A DNA stretch of 64,000 nucleotides from Phaeotremella fagi. Lineage: Eukaryota > Basidiomycota > Tremellomycetes > Tremellales > Phaeotremellaceae. Both the position numbers and the translations under genes were made by a program. The stretch is taken from contig BCHU01000003.1 in assembly GCA_001599715.1 (NCBI GenBank), positions 1,674,001-1,738,000 of the forward strand. Reading direction: 5' to 3'. The notes beneath the pieces are model-generated. The model did no database searches. It worked only from the letters and a program-made list of their open reading frames with translations, and was not told the origin of the DNA. Positions 9,714-32,418 of this stretch are shown here, piece by piece (position 1 is the first letter of the stretch; each line of letters starts with the position of its first letter).

Positions 9714-10035
9714 GATCTTTTGCGAAGATATTGGTGACGTTGGGAGGACGAGGTTTCAGAAAACGTATTATTTGTATACAGTAGCATGCACTAAATGTAG
9801 ATTCTTACTAAGCAGGAAACTTACTGGGAAAAAGGGAACTGAATGATGGAAGGACTTTAGTTTCGTTGAGCGTACTGTACAAATACAGTACGTTACTGTA
9901 CGAGTGCCTAGCTGATTTGACATGCATTAACGAGTGGAACAAATATCAATTGAGAGTGTTCGCTAACTATCTTATATGTACTGTACATTACATTTTTATC
10001 GCTACATACAAAGAAATCAGACCACGCGAACATCA
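9714..10035. other. intergenic region with TACTGTAC palindromes
   Basis: Between a plus-strand gene and the 3' end of a minus-strand gene, so no promoter is needed for either. It holds the inverted repeats listed separately and otherwise AT-rich sequence. Confidence 0.4.
9871..9892. repeat. perfect inverted repeat, 9-bp arms
   Basis: CGTACTGTA (9871-9879), a 4-nt spacer, and TACAGTACG (9884-9892). A third half-site TTACTGTACG follows immediately at 9893-9902. The interrupted palindrome TGTACTGTACA recurs at 9977-9987. Confidence 0.8.
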
Positions 10036-22923: not shown

Positions 22924-23355
22924 TGTACGAGTACATACGAGTTCATAGATTGATGAAGTAGTTGTCAAAATCTCTTGTGAGGTTCAAAAGTTAGGTGCCA
23001 CAGGAAAACTCAATACCGCAAGCCTGATTTTCGTCCATTTCATTTTGCTCTTAGTACTATTGAAAGAAGCTGAACGAGTACACAGTTTTAATAGAATCAC
23101 TTATAGAGTGACATATTTTATGTCTCTCATGGAAAGTCTGCATTTTTTACATTTCTAACATGGACTCATTACCCCCAATCACGTTTAAACCATTGCACCA
23201 ACTCATGACGTCATTACGTCATCAGCCCGCTAGTCCGAGCCAGTTTATTTCGTGGTAAGACTTTCCAAGTGCATCTTCAAATACGATATCTAACAGCATA
23301 TATACTTCGTACAGTAACATCATCAACCAATTAATCCTCACAGAGTTCAATCACA
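22924..23355. other. intergenic region, promoter of the small mitochondrial protein gene
   Basis: 432 bp, AT-rich, with TATA-like ATATATA at 23298-23304 about 52 bp before ATG 23356 and a TGACGTCATTACGTCATC stretch (23205-23223) that contains a perfect CRE/bZIP site TGACGTCA followed by a second ACGTCA half. Confidence 0.5.
23205..23222. promoter_or_regulatory. tandem bZIP (CRE-like) sites
   Basis: TGACGTCA followed at once by TTACGTCA. This is the palindromic recognition sequence of ATF/CREB-type bZIP factors plus a near copy, about 140 bp upstream of ATG 23356. It suggests stress control of the downstream gene; the regulator is unknown. Confidence 0.55.
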
Positions 23356-24125
23356 ATGTCAGTCCTACGTCTAAGATCACTTCAATCCATCCGATCCACC
23401 CAACCACAAGTTATCCTCAGTGGAGTGAGATCTTACACTGCTTCAGTTCACGGTAACGATCCAGATGTAAGTGATCTCATATTCATTCGCACTTTGTCAT
23501 ATACTAATCACAATTTTCATCGATCGAATAGAAACTCGCTAAAGAGAAAGCAAGAAATCTAGGTGGTCACCAAGATTCATCTGCTCCTTTCAAAAAGGGT
23601 GCTCCAGGATGGAATGAGCATTTAGCTGTGGGTCAAATGTGTTATTTCTAATACATTTTCAACTGACCGAGTGTTTTAGTCTGATGCTGAGGCAAACGTT
23701 AAAGTGGGTATTGATTTCTCTCATTTCGTCTTATTTCGTAAGGAGTGGAATGGACACACTGGATCGATCATGAGGATCGAGAAAACTCAGTCGCGATTGT
23801 GTAGACCTGATATTATCCGAATCGAAAGCTAACTTTACATCTTAGGCCGATCAACATGGCCCAACTGGTAAACCAGGCAAAGCTCTCCAAGATGAGACGG
23901 TAGCACGTAAGCAGAGCTTTACCAATGATGGAAATCTGCTTATGAATCCATCGTAGACACCCACAAACACCACCACACCGAACACGGACACAAAGGTGCC
24001 GAATCTCATCAAGCCAAACATAATCCTGAAAGAACATCCAGCGAGGATGCTGTGAGTCAAAGTCAATTTGACATTGTAGTCACTAACTCTTTTCTTAGGT
24101 CAAAGCAGATCGCGGTGAGCATTAG
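23356..24125 (+). CDS. small predicted mitochondrial protein, His-rich
   Basis: Six exons give about 123 residues. Exon 1 (MSVLRLRSLQSIRSTQPQVI, then LSGVRSYTAS) is a clear mitochondrial presequence with an RSYTAS-type cleavage region. The mature part reads KLAKEKARNLGGHQDSSAPF, KKGAPGWNEHLA, SDAEANVK, ADQHGPTGKPGKALQDETVA, HTHKHHHTEHGHKG and ends VKADRGEH. The SDAEANVK exon is only 24 nt. The mature protein is hydrophilic, probably disordered, and His-rich, as in LEA-like or metal-buffering stress proteins. No named family is recognised. Upstream CRE-like sites fit stress induction. The third intron (about 142 nt) is longer than usual; I see no snoRNA boxes in it. Confidence 0.75.
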
Positions 24126-24853
24126 GGAAATTGGGAAATAAGAAATTAGCTTAGCATCTGTGTAAGAAAGAACATGGGGAAGAAGAATGAATTGGTCATA
24201 GGCAGAAGAGAAGTTTTTAATCATACATAGCAAGGCAAATATCGAATTGAAAACTTTGTGTTGAGTCAGAAATGCATGTACTAGGATTACTAGGATGGAA
24301 TGAGTAAGGAGTGGACGAGTGTGGGGACGTCAATTGAACGAAGATATCCTTCCACGAATGCCAACAAACTTTTCTATCATTCTTCTCCATTGATCTCTCT
24401 CAATTGGTTGCTCTAACGTGAATTAATACCGTATTCCATCTCAAATATAGATCCCAACGATGATCGACGATTACAACAAAAGTCAAGACGAAAACGGAAG
24501 CAAAAAGTGCCACAGGCAAAAGGGTGTCCAGAGCCCCCGTTGTCACGGGGGCTCTGGCCGTGCCTGGGGGCGACTTGTCAGTCGCCCCCAGGGTCCACGT
24601 GGCTGTCGCCACGTGCTTGTCGCTGTCGCGACGCTCGGAACTGTCGTCCTCGCTGTTTTCCGGTTATCATTGCATTCCCCTTACCCGGTCTCTTCTTTTG
24701 TTGCTGAAATGATTGCAATTCAATTCGTCCATACCATCTTAATTCTCTATCAATTTATCATCAATTTATCACTTTCGTTAACAGAATTTCATACTAAAAT
24801 ATCGTCAACGAATACACTAAATCAGCATCAGTCAATTCCATCCTATATCCAAA
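24126..24853. other. intergenic region carrying the TGTC-loop hairpin array
   Basis: 728 bp. GC-poor on both sides, with a sharply GC-rich block at about 24524-24650 described separately. ORFs through the block are by-products of the palindromes. Confidence 0.6.
24528..24650. repeat. array of consecutive GC-rich hairpins, all with loop TGTC
   Basis: Four perfect inverted repeats in a row, each enclosing exactly TGTC. Arms 24528-24540 and 24545-24557 (13 bp, CCAGAGCCCCCGT); arms 24563-24575 and 24580-24592 (13 bp, CCTGGGGGCGACT); arms 24596-24603 and 24608-24615 (8 bp, CACGTGGC); arms 24619-24623 and 24628-24632 (5 bp, GTCGC). A fifth, imperfect one surrounds TGTC at 24642-24645 (GGAAC/GTCC). 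Spacers are only 3-5 nt. The arms differ in sequence while the loop and phasing are constant, so this is not a simple tandem repeat. It lies about 200 bp upstream of the acyl-CoA dehydrogenase start. Confidence 0.9.
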
Positions 24854-29098: not shown

Positions 29099-30708
29099 CT
29101 AATTGACCGGATGATGTCTAACCCAATCCTCCGCCATACCTTTCCAATCCAATCCGATAAACCTCCTCACCCTCTCTTTCACAGCTTCAGGAGTCATCTC
29201 CGGTAACACATGTGAAGGAATGGGAGTAGCGAGAGCCTTTTTGATCGCTGAATGTAATCCTGGGACATCGCCGGCGAACACGTTGTAAACGTAGGGTCTG
29301 GTTTCATTTAGCAAAATGACTGTCTCCACAACTGAATCCCACTCACTCGCCCACTTCCTTCAACCAATCGTGCAGAGTTACCCATTTATCTCTATTCATC
29401 TTATCCTCTTCATCCCAGATGACAATCGGATTGATAAGCTATGAGTTTTGTCAGTATGACGACCAAACTCTTACTGATAAACCTACTGGGACACCAAGGA
29501 ATAAAGCCTCATACGGGGTAGGTGAAACAGCTGGATCCCCACCCATCCCAATAAGTACACTACTATGAGCCAGTAAATCGTAGAAAGCAGGTCGATCCAG
29601 TCGTCCCAGATTCTTGAGATTCGAAGCGTCCATCGCCCGATTACCTTCTTCGGATTCACTGGTATCCATAGCGATGATCAATTTCCCACCGGTTAATTCT
29701 TCCAATCCCTCCAACGTGGAGGTTGACCATACATGCGGTCTAACTAGGTATCCAGTGTTCCTGCCTAGGATGTACATTTGGTTCTTTGGTCGTTGTTCGT
29801 GTGGAATGAAGTGTTGTCCGATCTTGACTTCGTCCATTGAGTAGGGGATGTAATGGCTTTCAGTCTCTAGGGGTCTTGGATTGGGTGAGACTCTGAAAGA
29901 TGGTCCGAAGGGGGTATCGATCCTTCCCCATTCGGTGTTTAGACCGTCTTGTCCGAATGCACGTAGGATAACTCGAGGACTGTGATACATCAGAAAATGA
30001 CACCAATTGAATTCACTTACTCGTTGAAATAATCCATTCCAACCATTAAATGTTCAGGTAGCCAGCCTTTCTGTCTTTCTTTCCTCATTCGTCGACTCTC
30101 TGCTACTTCGTTTCTGACCAGTGCTGGATCAACTAGTATCAGTTTGGTACACCCTGGATATCTTTGATTGTATTCTCTTGCCAGAGATAATGGTCCCCAA
30201 CTTCCGATCGAGGAGGGTGTGAGAACGACTGGATGACCTAGAGACATGCAGGCTTTCATCTGTTAAAGTTAGTACAGTCCTGTCTCTGCTAGCTCACAAA
30301 TGATTCCAACCTATAAACTGTAAGCTTAATCTTTTCAAAATACTCCTTCACTCACCAGTAAGTTTCACCACCGGTAGCTCCCCAAGTATAAGCCAACGCC
30401 CAGTTCAAACCCAACATGACAAGTTGAGTAGAAGCTTCACTCCCACCAACAGTCCCGTTCAACAGCGCCTTCTCGAGTTTAGCCAGTTGGGGTTCATTGA
30501 ACTCTCGTATACCGTTAGGTAAGTTGTCTATCTCTGAGGGTTCTCCTTCCAGTAGGGGATAGAACGGTGGTTGAGGTTGCCATAAGTAATTTTGAACTTT
30601 TTGAGTCACTTCTAGATTCGATTGTAGGATTATGAAGATTAATACTACTCCTACGGATAAGGATATTAGTGTCCTCGGTGTTAGAGGTATCTTTCCTATG
30701 CTCAGCAT
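29099..30708 (-). CDS. type II membrane glycosyltransferase, GT18 (MGAT5)-like
   Basis: ATG 30708 gives MLSIGKIPLTPRTLISLSVG followed by VVLIFIILQ, a short cytosolic tail and one membrane anchor, as in Golgi glycosyltransferases. The lumenal part contains LGLNWALAYTWGATGGETYW, SLAREYNQRYPGCTKLILVD, RPKNQMYILGRNTGYLVRPH, LLAHSSVLIGMGGDPAVSPT and PYEALFLGVPV with LINPI in the next exon. The arrangement of AHSSVLIG, PYEALFLGVP and INP recalls the donor-binding end of GT18 N-acetylglucosaminyltransferase V. Four introns are read, near 29330-29350, 29440-29460, 29990-30015 and 30260-30355, with approximate edges. Family assignment is inference from these motifs; gene and topology are well supported. 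Confidence 0.7.
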
Positions 30709-31595: not shown

Positions 31596-32418
31596 CGACA
31601 ATGACTTTCAACCTATGTGAGTGATATATTTTGGCTATGCTGATTTAATAGATACCCAATTCATTAGTATTCTTATCTATGTATACCCGATTCTGGGTCA
31701 ACGAACACCCATTTGCATTAACGCACTCCTTCCATCCCATCACTCTGAACGTGGTGTAACTTCCCCCATCACTTCTTCCCGGTCTTCGACTTGACCGCGA
31801 GCTCTCCAAATGGATTACCCAAACTCGTCGGTCTCGTCTACCTCTATTCAATTGAATCAATAACCATCAAGGTTGTTGAGACAATTGTATTTGAGGATGA
31901 CCTACAAATCATGTCGCTCGTCGACTCTACCCTCTAATGACACGGTTTTGCCAGCGGTCAGTGGTCATCGTGACAGATACGGGGTGGACATCTGTATTCT
32001 CAATCTCACACATACTGATGAAACCGAATCCTTCACGTTTCTGAAGTCACCTTTCACCAATGCTGACGGGCCCAGGACCGATAGCCACAAGAAAAGAGAT
32101 ATAGTATTCCTAAACGTCCCCCCTCTTCCCCCTGGTGCTCCCTCTCCCCCGCCCTTGAAACCCTGCTACCTATAACATTCGGGCTTTACTTTCCCATTCA
32201 ATTGATCTCCTGGGATCTACAACCAATCCATGAAACATGTTTGAACTGCTCTAAATTCAAAGGAAACTTTTTTCCTTTGGGCTCCTTTCTCATACGAGTG
32301 AGGGGGATCACTGACCATGTAGAGGTACTTATATCCTGAAGTGAACTCATTTCCTCCATCGATAAACCAATAAAAAAATACAACAGTACAACAATACAAC
32401 GATCAAGTCCCGAAAATC
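31596..32418. other. intergenic region with a short hairpin
   Basis: About 820 bp. Contains a C/T-rich stretch (32118-32160) and a perfect hairpin CAAAGGAAA-CTTT-TTTCCTTTG at 32258-32279. A 100-codon frame at 31873-32175 has atypical composition and no support. Confidence 0.45.
32258..32279. repeat. perfect inverted repeat, 9-bp arms
   Basis: CAAAGGAAA at 32258-32266 and TTTCCTTTG at 32271-32279 around a CTTT loop, about 140 bp upstream of ATG 32419. Confidence 0.7.

Follow-up and report, generated by a model that had tools for sequence, protein, structure and literature searches.

REP, BIME and REPIN sequences are bacterial palindromes mobilized by TnpA-REP (RAYT), and two accounts (PMC8266576, PMC3116915) describe a REP as a palindrome of 20–50 nt that follows a conserved tetranucleotide, mostly GTAG, with about six hundred copies in E. 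coli K12 and thousands elsewhere. According to these accounts, recognition is strand-specific and takes place on folded single-stranded DNA, where the loop and in-stem mismatches matter, and compensatory hairpin changes are common in REPINs (PMC8266576, PMC3116915). REP palindromes are described there as occurring singly, as inverted doublets and in clusters, and as being read in the form of a folded single strand, points on which the hairpin arrays reported here would resemble them. These arrays differ, however, in belonging to a fungal nuclear genome, in numbering five (at least) and in having stems that are unrelated even within a single array.

Mitochondrial GC clusters, double-hairpin elements and repetitive hairpin elements are likewise GC-rich mobile hairpins in intergenic DNA, but all of these are organellar; for the present arrays, no organelle link was found in an assembly that has no COX1 match. 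Cut-and-paste elements, such as MITEs and TIR DNA transposons, possess inverted ends and short direct repeats. Among structured RNAs, bacterial ANTAR tandem hairpins are repeated hairpins with free stems, as here, and the ANTAR target hairpins have fixed loop letters. Bacterial CsrA-binding sponge RNAs also combine repeated hairpins, fixed loop letters and free stems. For fungi, one study deals with 15 RNA motifs (PMC5640933). The matches listed in open-access keyword searches were bacterial and organellar mobile palindromes and fungal structured RNAs; an array of hairpins with a constant loop in the nuclear DNA of a fungus was not among them, which does not prove its absence.

The E1 array and its copy on a second contig

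In the window, meaning the whole 64-kb stretch of DNA that was analysed, the array E1 spans positions 24528-24653 and consists of four perfect hairpins (stems of 13, 13, 8 and 5 bp) and one imperfect hairpin, all five with the loop TGTC. The stem coordinates given below confirm the four perfect inverted repeats and the fifth, imperfect one reported by the first-pass annotation, whose spacers of 3-5 nt hold for the first three intervals (5, 3 and 3 nt) but not for the last, which is 0 nt. The block had also been described as richer in G+C than its surroundings, in agreement with a G+C fraction of 0.70 in 24520-24639 against about 0.3-0.5 around it. The features of the locus, including three boxes to the left of the array, are as follows.

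24489..24499, + strand: left box 1, CGAAAACGGAA; similar words left of the array are CGAAACGGAA in E4 and CGAAAAACTGAA in E3
24505..24513, + strand: left box 2, AAGTGCCAC; identical in E2 and E4
24516..24525, + strand: left box 3, GCAAAAGGGT; the E2 and E4 version is GCAAAGGGT
24528..24557, no strand assigned: hairpin 1, 13-bp stem, loop TGTC; 15-bp stem in E2
24563..24592, no strand assigned: hairpin 2, 13-bp stem, loop TGTC; 5′ arm and loop replaced in E2
24596..24615, no strand assigned: hairpin 3, 8-bp stem, loop TGTC
24619..24632, no strand assigned: hairpin 4, 5-bp stem, loop TGTC
24633..24653, no strand assigned: end hairpin GCTCGGAACTGTCGTCCTCGC, imperfect, TGTC between the arms, 2x2 mismatch TC/TC

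Read directly from the sequence, the TC/TC mismatch of the end hairpin is GA/GA on the opposite strand. The end-hairpin frame GCTCGG...CCTCGC is common to E1-E5.

The E1 array is far beyond chance. When tetraloop stems of ≥5 bp were summed over a 160-base block, 39 stem pairs were observed, compared with a maximum of 18 in 20,000 mononucleotide shuffles, and folding of 171 nt gave z = -6.2 against dinucleotide shuffles. The four perfect hairpins of E1 are the only TGTC/GACA tetraloop hairpins with a stem of ≥5 in the 64-kb window, and counting TGCC as well adds a single hairpin, at 30179, with a stem of 5 bp. Perfect tetraloop hairpins with 9-bp stems also lie at 32258-32279 and 9871-9892, and their loops, CTTT and CAAA, are unrelated to that of E1. 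The distance of about 200 nt to an acyl-CoA dehydrogenase start, given in the first-pass annotation, was borne out: E1 ends 200 nt upstream of an ATG (gene start assigned by eye), downstream of which cytochrome-b5 and acyl-CoA-dehydrogenase domains are encoded. A sulfatase is also encoded near E1; its nearest named relatives are from Apiotrichum, Kwoniella and Naematelia, with many Ascomycota lower among the matches listed, which roughly suggests a host resembling the tremellomycetes.

A DNA search of the whole genome (22.6 Mb, 24 contigs) with E1 returned two places, E1 itself and E2 (C17:90044-90190), and missed the more divergent E3 and E4 described below. In the alignment, E2 equals E1 over window 24499-24654 apart from a single A indel and the replacement of a segment, through which hairpin 2 loses its 5′ arm and loop. 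Beyond the matched limits the flanks of the two copies are unrelated, bar a few letters around AGACG and CGG. The end hairpin of E2 lies 99 nt upstream of an ATG (by eye), and a DEAD-helicase domain, RecQ-like by eye, is found ~0.5 kb beyond that ATG. Since a near-identical copy is present on another contig, E1 is not an assembly singleton, and its identity with E2 within unrelated flanks indicates that the block was copied as a unit, either recently or with conversion. The E1/E2 pair alone is uninformative on selection acting on the stems.

Related arrays and the size of the family

On contig C1, E3 carries five perfect TGTC hairpins with stems different from those of E1. Its 5′ arms (AATCCC, ACAATGC, CAGTGC, GTGACC and CGTGAGC) are each followed by TGTC and the exact complement, and the hairpins are followed by GCTCGGACCTTCGGCCTCGC, which matches the end hairpin of E1. 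This end hairpin lies 231 nt upstream of a same-strand ATG (by eye), and a stretch of the downstream reading frame gave no Pfam match. Upstream of E3 (L048, C1, minus strand) there are several copies of ACCATACTCC and an inverted pair, GAGTATGGT...ACCATACTC; the word CGACTTT likewise occurs upstream of E3 and again at the outer edge of its end hairpin.

E4, on contig C12, consists of two outward-facing arrays with TGCC loops, one of six hairpins plus an end hairpin and the other of three plus an end hairpin (11 in total), and is 438 bp long from the outer edge of one end hairpin to that of the other. In inverted orientation the two ends agree at 96% over 28 bp, a stretch that takes in four letters beyond each end hairpin, and the letters beside the end hairpins, AGAC and GTCT, are inverted and not direct repeats. 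On one side, the match of the adjoining coding frame to MFS_1 stops at profile position 241 of 347; on the other, a 49-aa frame on the same strand has no Pfam match but looks by eye like an MFS tail. Given the partial match and the short tail-like frame opposite, a stretch of the transporter is seemingly missing at E4. On C12 (L055/L132), the MFS-like gene beside E4 is followed by a second MFS-like frame on the same strand (by eye). Taken together with E3, whose stems measure 6, 7, 6, 6 and 7 bp, E4 also shows that the steady fall in stem length noted for E1 by the first-pass annotation is no rule, as it fails in both. Finally, E5, on contig C2, is a lone 20-bp end hairpin with the tetranucleotide GTTA on each side. 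It lies within an apparent intron (by eye) of a gene whose match to HpcH/HpaI-aldolase is weak and below the cut-off (E = 0.0028).

Genome-wide pattern searches placed these loci against the background. The end-hairpin pattern GCTCGGN{6,12}CCTCGC occurred at 7 places, compared with 1 for the reversed control, and six of the seven belong to the family (E1, E2, E3, two on C12 in E4, and E5 on C2), the remaining one, on C10, being unrelated. For the loop pattern CTGTCGN{8,34}CTGTCG there were 72 rows, 30 forward and 42 reverse, against 23 and 37 for the reversed control; eight of the 72 lie in arrays: two in E1, two in E2 and four in the C1 cluster, E3. For TTGYCASN{6,32}STTGYCA, 100 rows were obtained, five of them in E1 and E4; with 54 and 46 rows against 74 and 56 in the control there is no excess, so most rows are chance matches. 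The flanks of the remaining rows were examined in 64/64 cases for the first loop pattern and in 94/95 for the second, the 95th place lying inside the window, where it has no TGYC hairpin. None of these 158 non-family places with paired loop words is an array: four have a single TGYC hairpin, whose stem is exactly 4 long, and not one has two. Against this background the five arrays stand out sharply, although such patterns would overlook arrays whose loops or closing pairs differ, and the pattern counts are lower bounds.

The family thus far comprises at least five arrays at four loci and the lone end hairpin E5. DNA searches of the genome with E4 and E3 found no further copies, and places that resemble the end hairpin (six with 2-3 mismatches and one with 3) had no TGYC hairpin of stem ≥4. 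Other loci, 145 kb in all, contain 143 tetraloop hairpins with stems ≥5, among which no loop is favoured (top count 4), and a generic hairpin model run on 37 sources (176 kb, without the E3 and E4 loci) matched just the first two hairpins of E1 and the first of E2. In viral contigs, a 26-base word from the left part had 0 matches, the 20-bp end hairpin occurred in 1 and GGTTGCCACC twice in 37; none of those 38 contigs has two TGYC hairpins (stem ≥5) within 60 nt. Two further leads were dropped: a search of plasmids, which gave two weak Streptomyces matches (E = 0.1), and a link to other species through spurious ORFs, for which two array-frame proteins were searched and none of the 12 and 13 candidates had E <= 10.

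Fixed loop and free stems

In total, 24 hairpins have ≥4 Watson-Crick pairs beside a TGYC loop, and 19 are distinct once five repeats from E2, E4 and E5 are dropped; the end hairpins of E1-E3 are not among the 24 because their perfect inner stems are shorter. The 19 hairpins were aligned on the loop with 7 pairs each, giving 133 cells. Standard pairs fill 93.2% of these cells (shuffled mean 50.8), and two-sided changes number 58 (shuffled mean 19.6, 0/500 shuffles as high), values that are partly built in, since the hairpins were chosen for ≥4 inner pairs. The three outer pairs, which lie outside this selection, are paired in 14, 17 and 17 of the 19 hairpins (48/57 cells), and sliding the partner by 1-3 columns cuts pairing to 30-51%. 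Of the five measures, the number of pairs showing a two-sided change and that of further pair types were not above the shuffles (239/500 and 118/500).

The loop letters are T, G, Y and C, with Y permitted by the search; the closing pair is C-G (11 hairpins) or T-A (8), and the next pair G-C (15) or C-G (4). Each array can be described as 3-6 TGYC hairpins closed by a Y-R and then an S-S pair, followed by the GCTCGG-N-CCTCGC end hairpin with its 2x2 mismatch. Stems vary within and between arrays while complementarity is kept. The earlier statement that the loop is what is conserved, made for E1, extends to all five arrays, in which the stems differ and the loop stays TGTC or TGCC. Within E3, a comparison of hairpins 2 and 3 shows a two-sided change, A-T to G-C, and a one-sided one, A-T to G-T; between hairpins 4 and 5 the changes are C-G to G-C and T-G to C-G. 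Judged from these differences, hairpins 2/3 and 4/5 appear to be tandem duplicates changed in pairs.

Perfect palindromes could also arise by a DNA process without any partner, in which template-switch repair makes them and keeps them perfect around a short core, E1 and E2 having been copied by chance. Such a process would fit the 39 Watson-Crick pairs of E1 hairpins 1-4, which include no wobble, and the change in E2, a deletion or replacement inside a palindrome. We consider it improbable, however, as it leaves unexplained the TGYC loop, the closing pairs and the GCTCGG...CCTCGC end hairpin common to separate arrays, as well as the absence of arrays from all 158 other places with paired loop words.

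The fixed loop and co-varying stems are also compatible with a structured RNA. According to this explanation, which we rank second and regard as rather unlikely, the arrays would be transcribed as a leader or small RNA whose repeated loops bind an RNA-binding protein, as a sponge or as a translational or stability switch, and copies would spread by rare duplication. The position of the E1-E3 end hairpins (200, 99 and 231 nt before a same-strand ATG) is consistent with this, and boxes common to E1, E2 and E4 could be promoter elements. Moreover, going outward from the stem, the first pair that is not Watson-Crick is, on the + strand, G-U in 8/19 hairpins and A-C in 0. Yet this G-U excess is not significant when base content is kept (P = 0.26, or 0.11 for the G-U minus A-C difference), and P = 0.008 arises only against a uniform 1/6. 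Furthermore, E4 lies in or beside coding sequence and has inverted ends, E5 lies in a likely intron, and no Rfam family was matched at gathering score: with Rfam 15, E1 had 7 matches, all sub-gathering (E >= 0.25), and the E2-E5 and C9 loci had 0.

The strand preference of the folds may also speak against the RNA explanation, as all 21 folded hairpins are predicted to be more stable as RNA on the opposite strand, where the loops read GRCA; as DNA, the stability model favours that strand in 20/21, with one tie. The energy model gives G-A first mismatches a bonus, and as this bonus probably accounts for the preference, stability was not used to assign a strand. A Pol III terminator was dropped as a candidate: T4 follows E1 and E2 but does not directly follow E3-E5.

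As for the left boxes, AAGTGCCAC lies left of the array in E1, E2 and E4, and GCAAAGGGT in E2 and E4; the 8-mer AAACGGAA of box 1 is common to E1 and E4, and its resemblance in E3 was seen by eye. Any shared 9-mer arose in 124/5,000 mononucleotide shuffles and two in 27/5,000, overlapping ones counted. Box 2 falls inside a 19-nt identity between E2 and C9: at C9 ~556581-556599 (L014 ~1497-1515), AAAAGTGCCACAGGCAAAG reproduces these letters of the E2 left part and is not accompanied by a hairpin array. This match may be a relic; alternatively, it may be a promoter word of the host that the arrays use as well. The 14-mer GTGCCACAGGNAAA, with <=1 mismatch, occurs at 30 places compared with 12 for its control. 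A second GTGCCACAGG is located at window 22995-23004, upstream of an ATG at 23356; two matches of GTGCCACAGG per window, with one mismatch allowed, correspond to chance level.

Probable mobility and the kind of element

The most likely reading, which we hold with evenly divided confidence, is that E1 is one of five arrays in a small dispersed family of mobile palindromic cassettes, moved by a putative trans-acting protein. Mobility is favoured by the presence of the unit in unrelated flanks (E2), by the inverted-ended E4 at a seemingly broken transporter gene and by the lone E5 between 4-bp direct repeats, observations that support the mobile palindromic element suggested in the first-pass annotation. 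The conserved loop, closing pairs and end-hairpin mismatch are the items that a protein would read on a folded single strand. Accordingly phrased as a model, the unit would be recognized as a folded single strand, on extruded or lagging-strand DNA or possibly on a transcript, by a putative protein to which the loop and the mismatch in the end hairpin matter and the sequence of the stems does not. This protein, transposase- or endonuclease-like and encoded elsewhere, would move the unit; arrays would lengthen through tandem hairpin duplication, and their stems would drift by paired changes.

Several observations weigh against the mobile cassette. Only five arrays at four loci (as a minimum) were found, E1 and E2 have no clear target-site duplication, and at E4 the flanking letters are inverted and part of the host gene is seemingly missing. 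In addition, three of the four loci have an array 99-231 nt upstream of a same-orientation ATG (by eye), which a cis-acting role predicts likewise.

Mobile hairpins rich in G+C occur in the mitochondrial DNA of fungi and of other organisms, and the arrays might be nuclear insertions of mitochondrial GC clusters or double-hairpin elements. We regard this as highly improbable, as E4 adjoins nuclear coding sequence and its ends face outward, and as the borders of E1 and E2 are the same and not random. COX1 had no match in the assembly, so there was no mitochondrial contig for comparison; prokaryotic genomes served as the search controls.

The mobile-cassette reading brings the family closest to REP-type palindromes. 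Neither GTAG nor any other constant word precedes the hairpins in 24 rows from E1-E5 (by eye), and a possible inverted doublet is seen in E4 only. By analogy, the best reading is that the array family would work like REP/REPIN but falls outside REP/REPIN membership, having no GTAG-like word and few copies. With respect to MITEs and TIR transposons, the features are mixed: E4 has inverted ends (terminal inverted repeats of 28 bp, 96%) and E5 has 4-bp direct repeats, whereas no terminal inverted repeats were seen in E1-E3, which are one-ended, the arrays have no agreed target duplication and hairpin arrays take the place of simple inverted ends. We place the arrays with mobile palindromic DNA, although they may well form a kind of their own. 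We more tentatively propose an alternative reading, in which they represent a nuclear mobile element or loop-coded nucleic acid of a new eukaryotic kind, whose identity would reside in TGYC tetraloops (GRCA on the opposite strand) and in an end hairpin whose tandem mismatch is of the G-A type, the stems being free to diverge so that copies escape sequence-based repeat finders.

Repeat and homology searches compare sequence, and elements that are recognized through loop and fold while their stems are free would almost entirely escape them. If the mobile-cassette reading is true, this fungus would have a counterpart of REP-type elements, whose spread a simple motif search could show, and the fixed loop would offer a ready bait for finding a putative binding protein.
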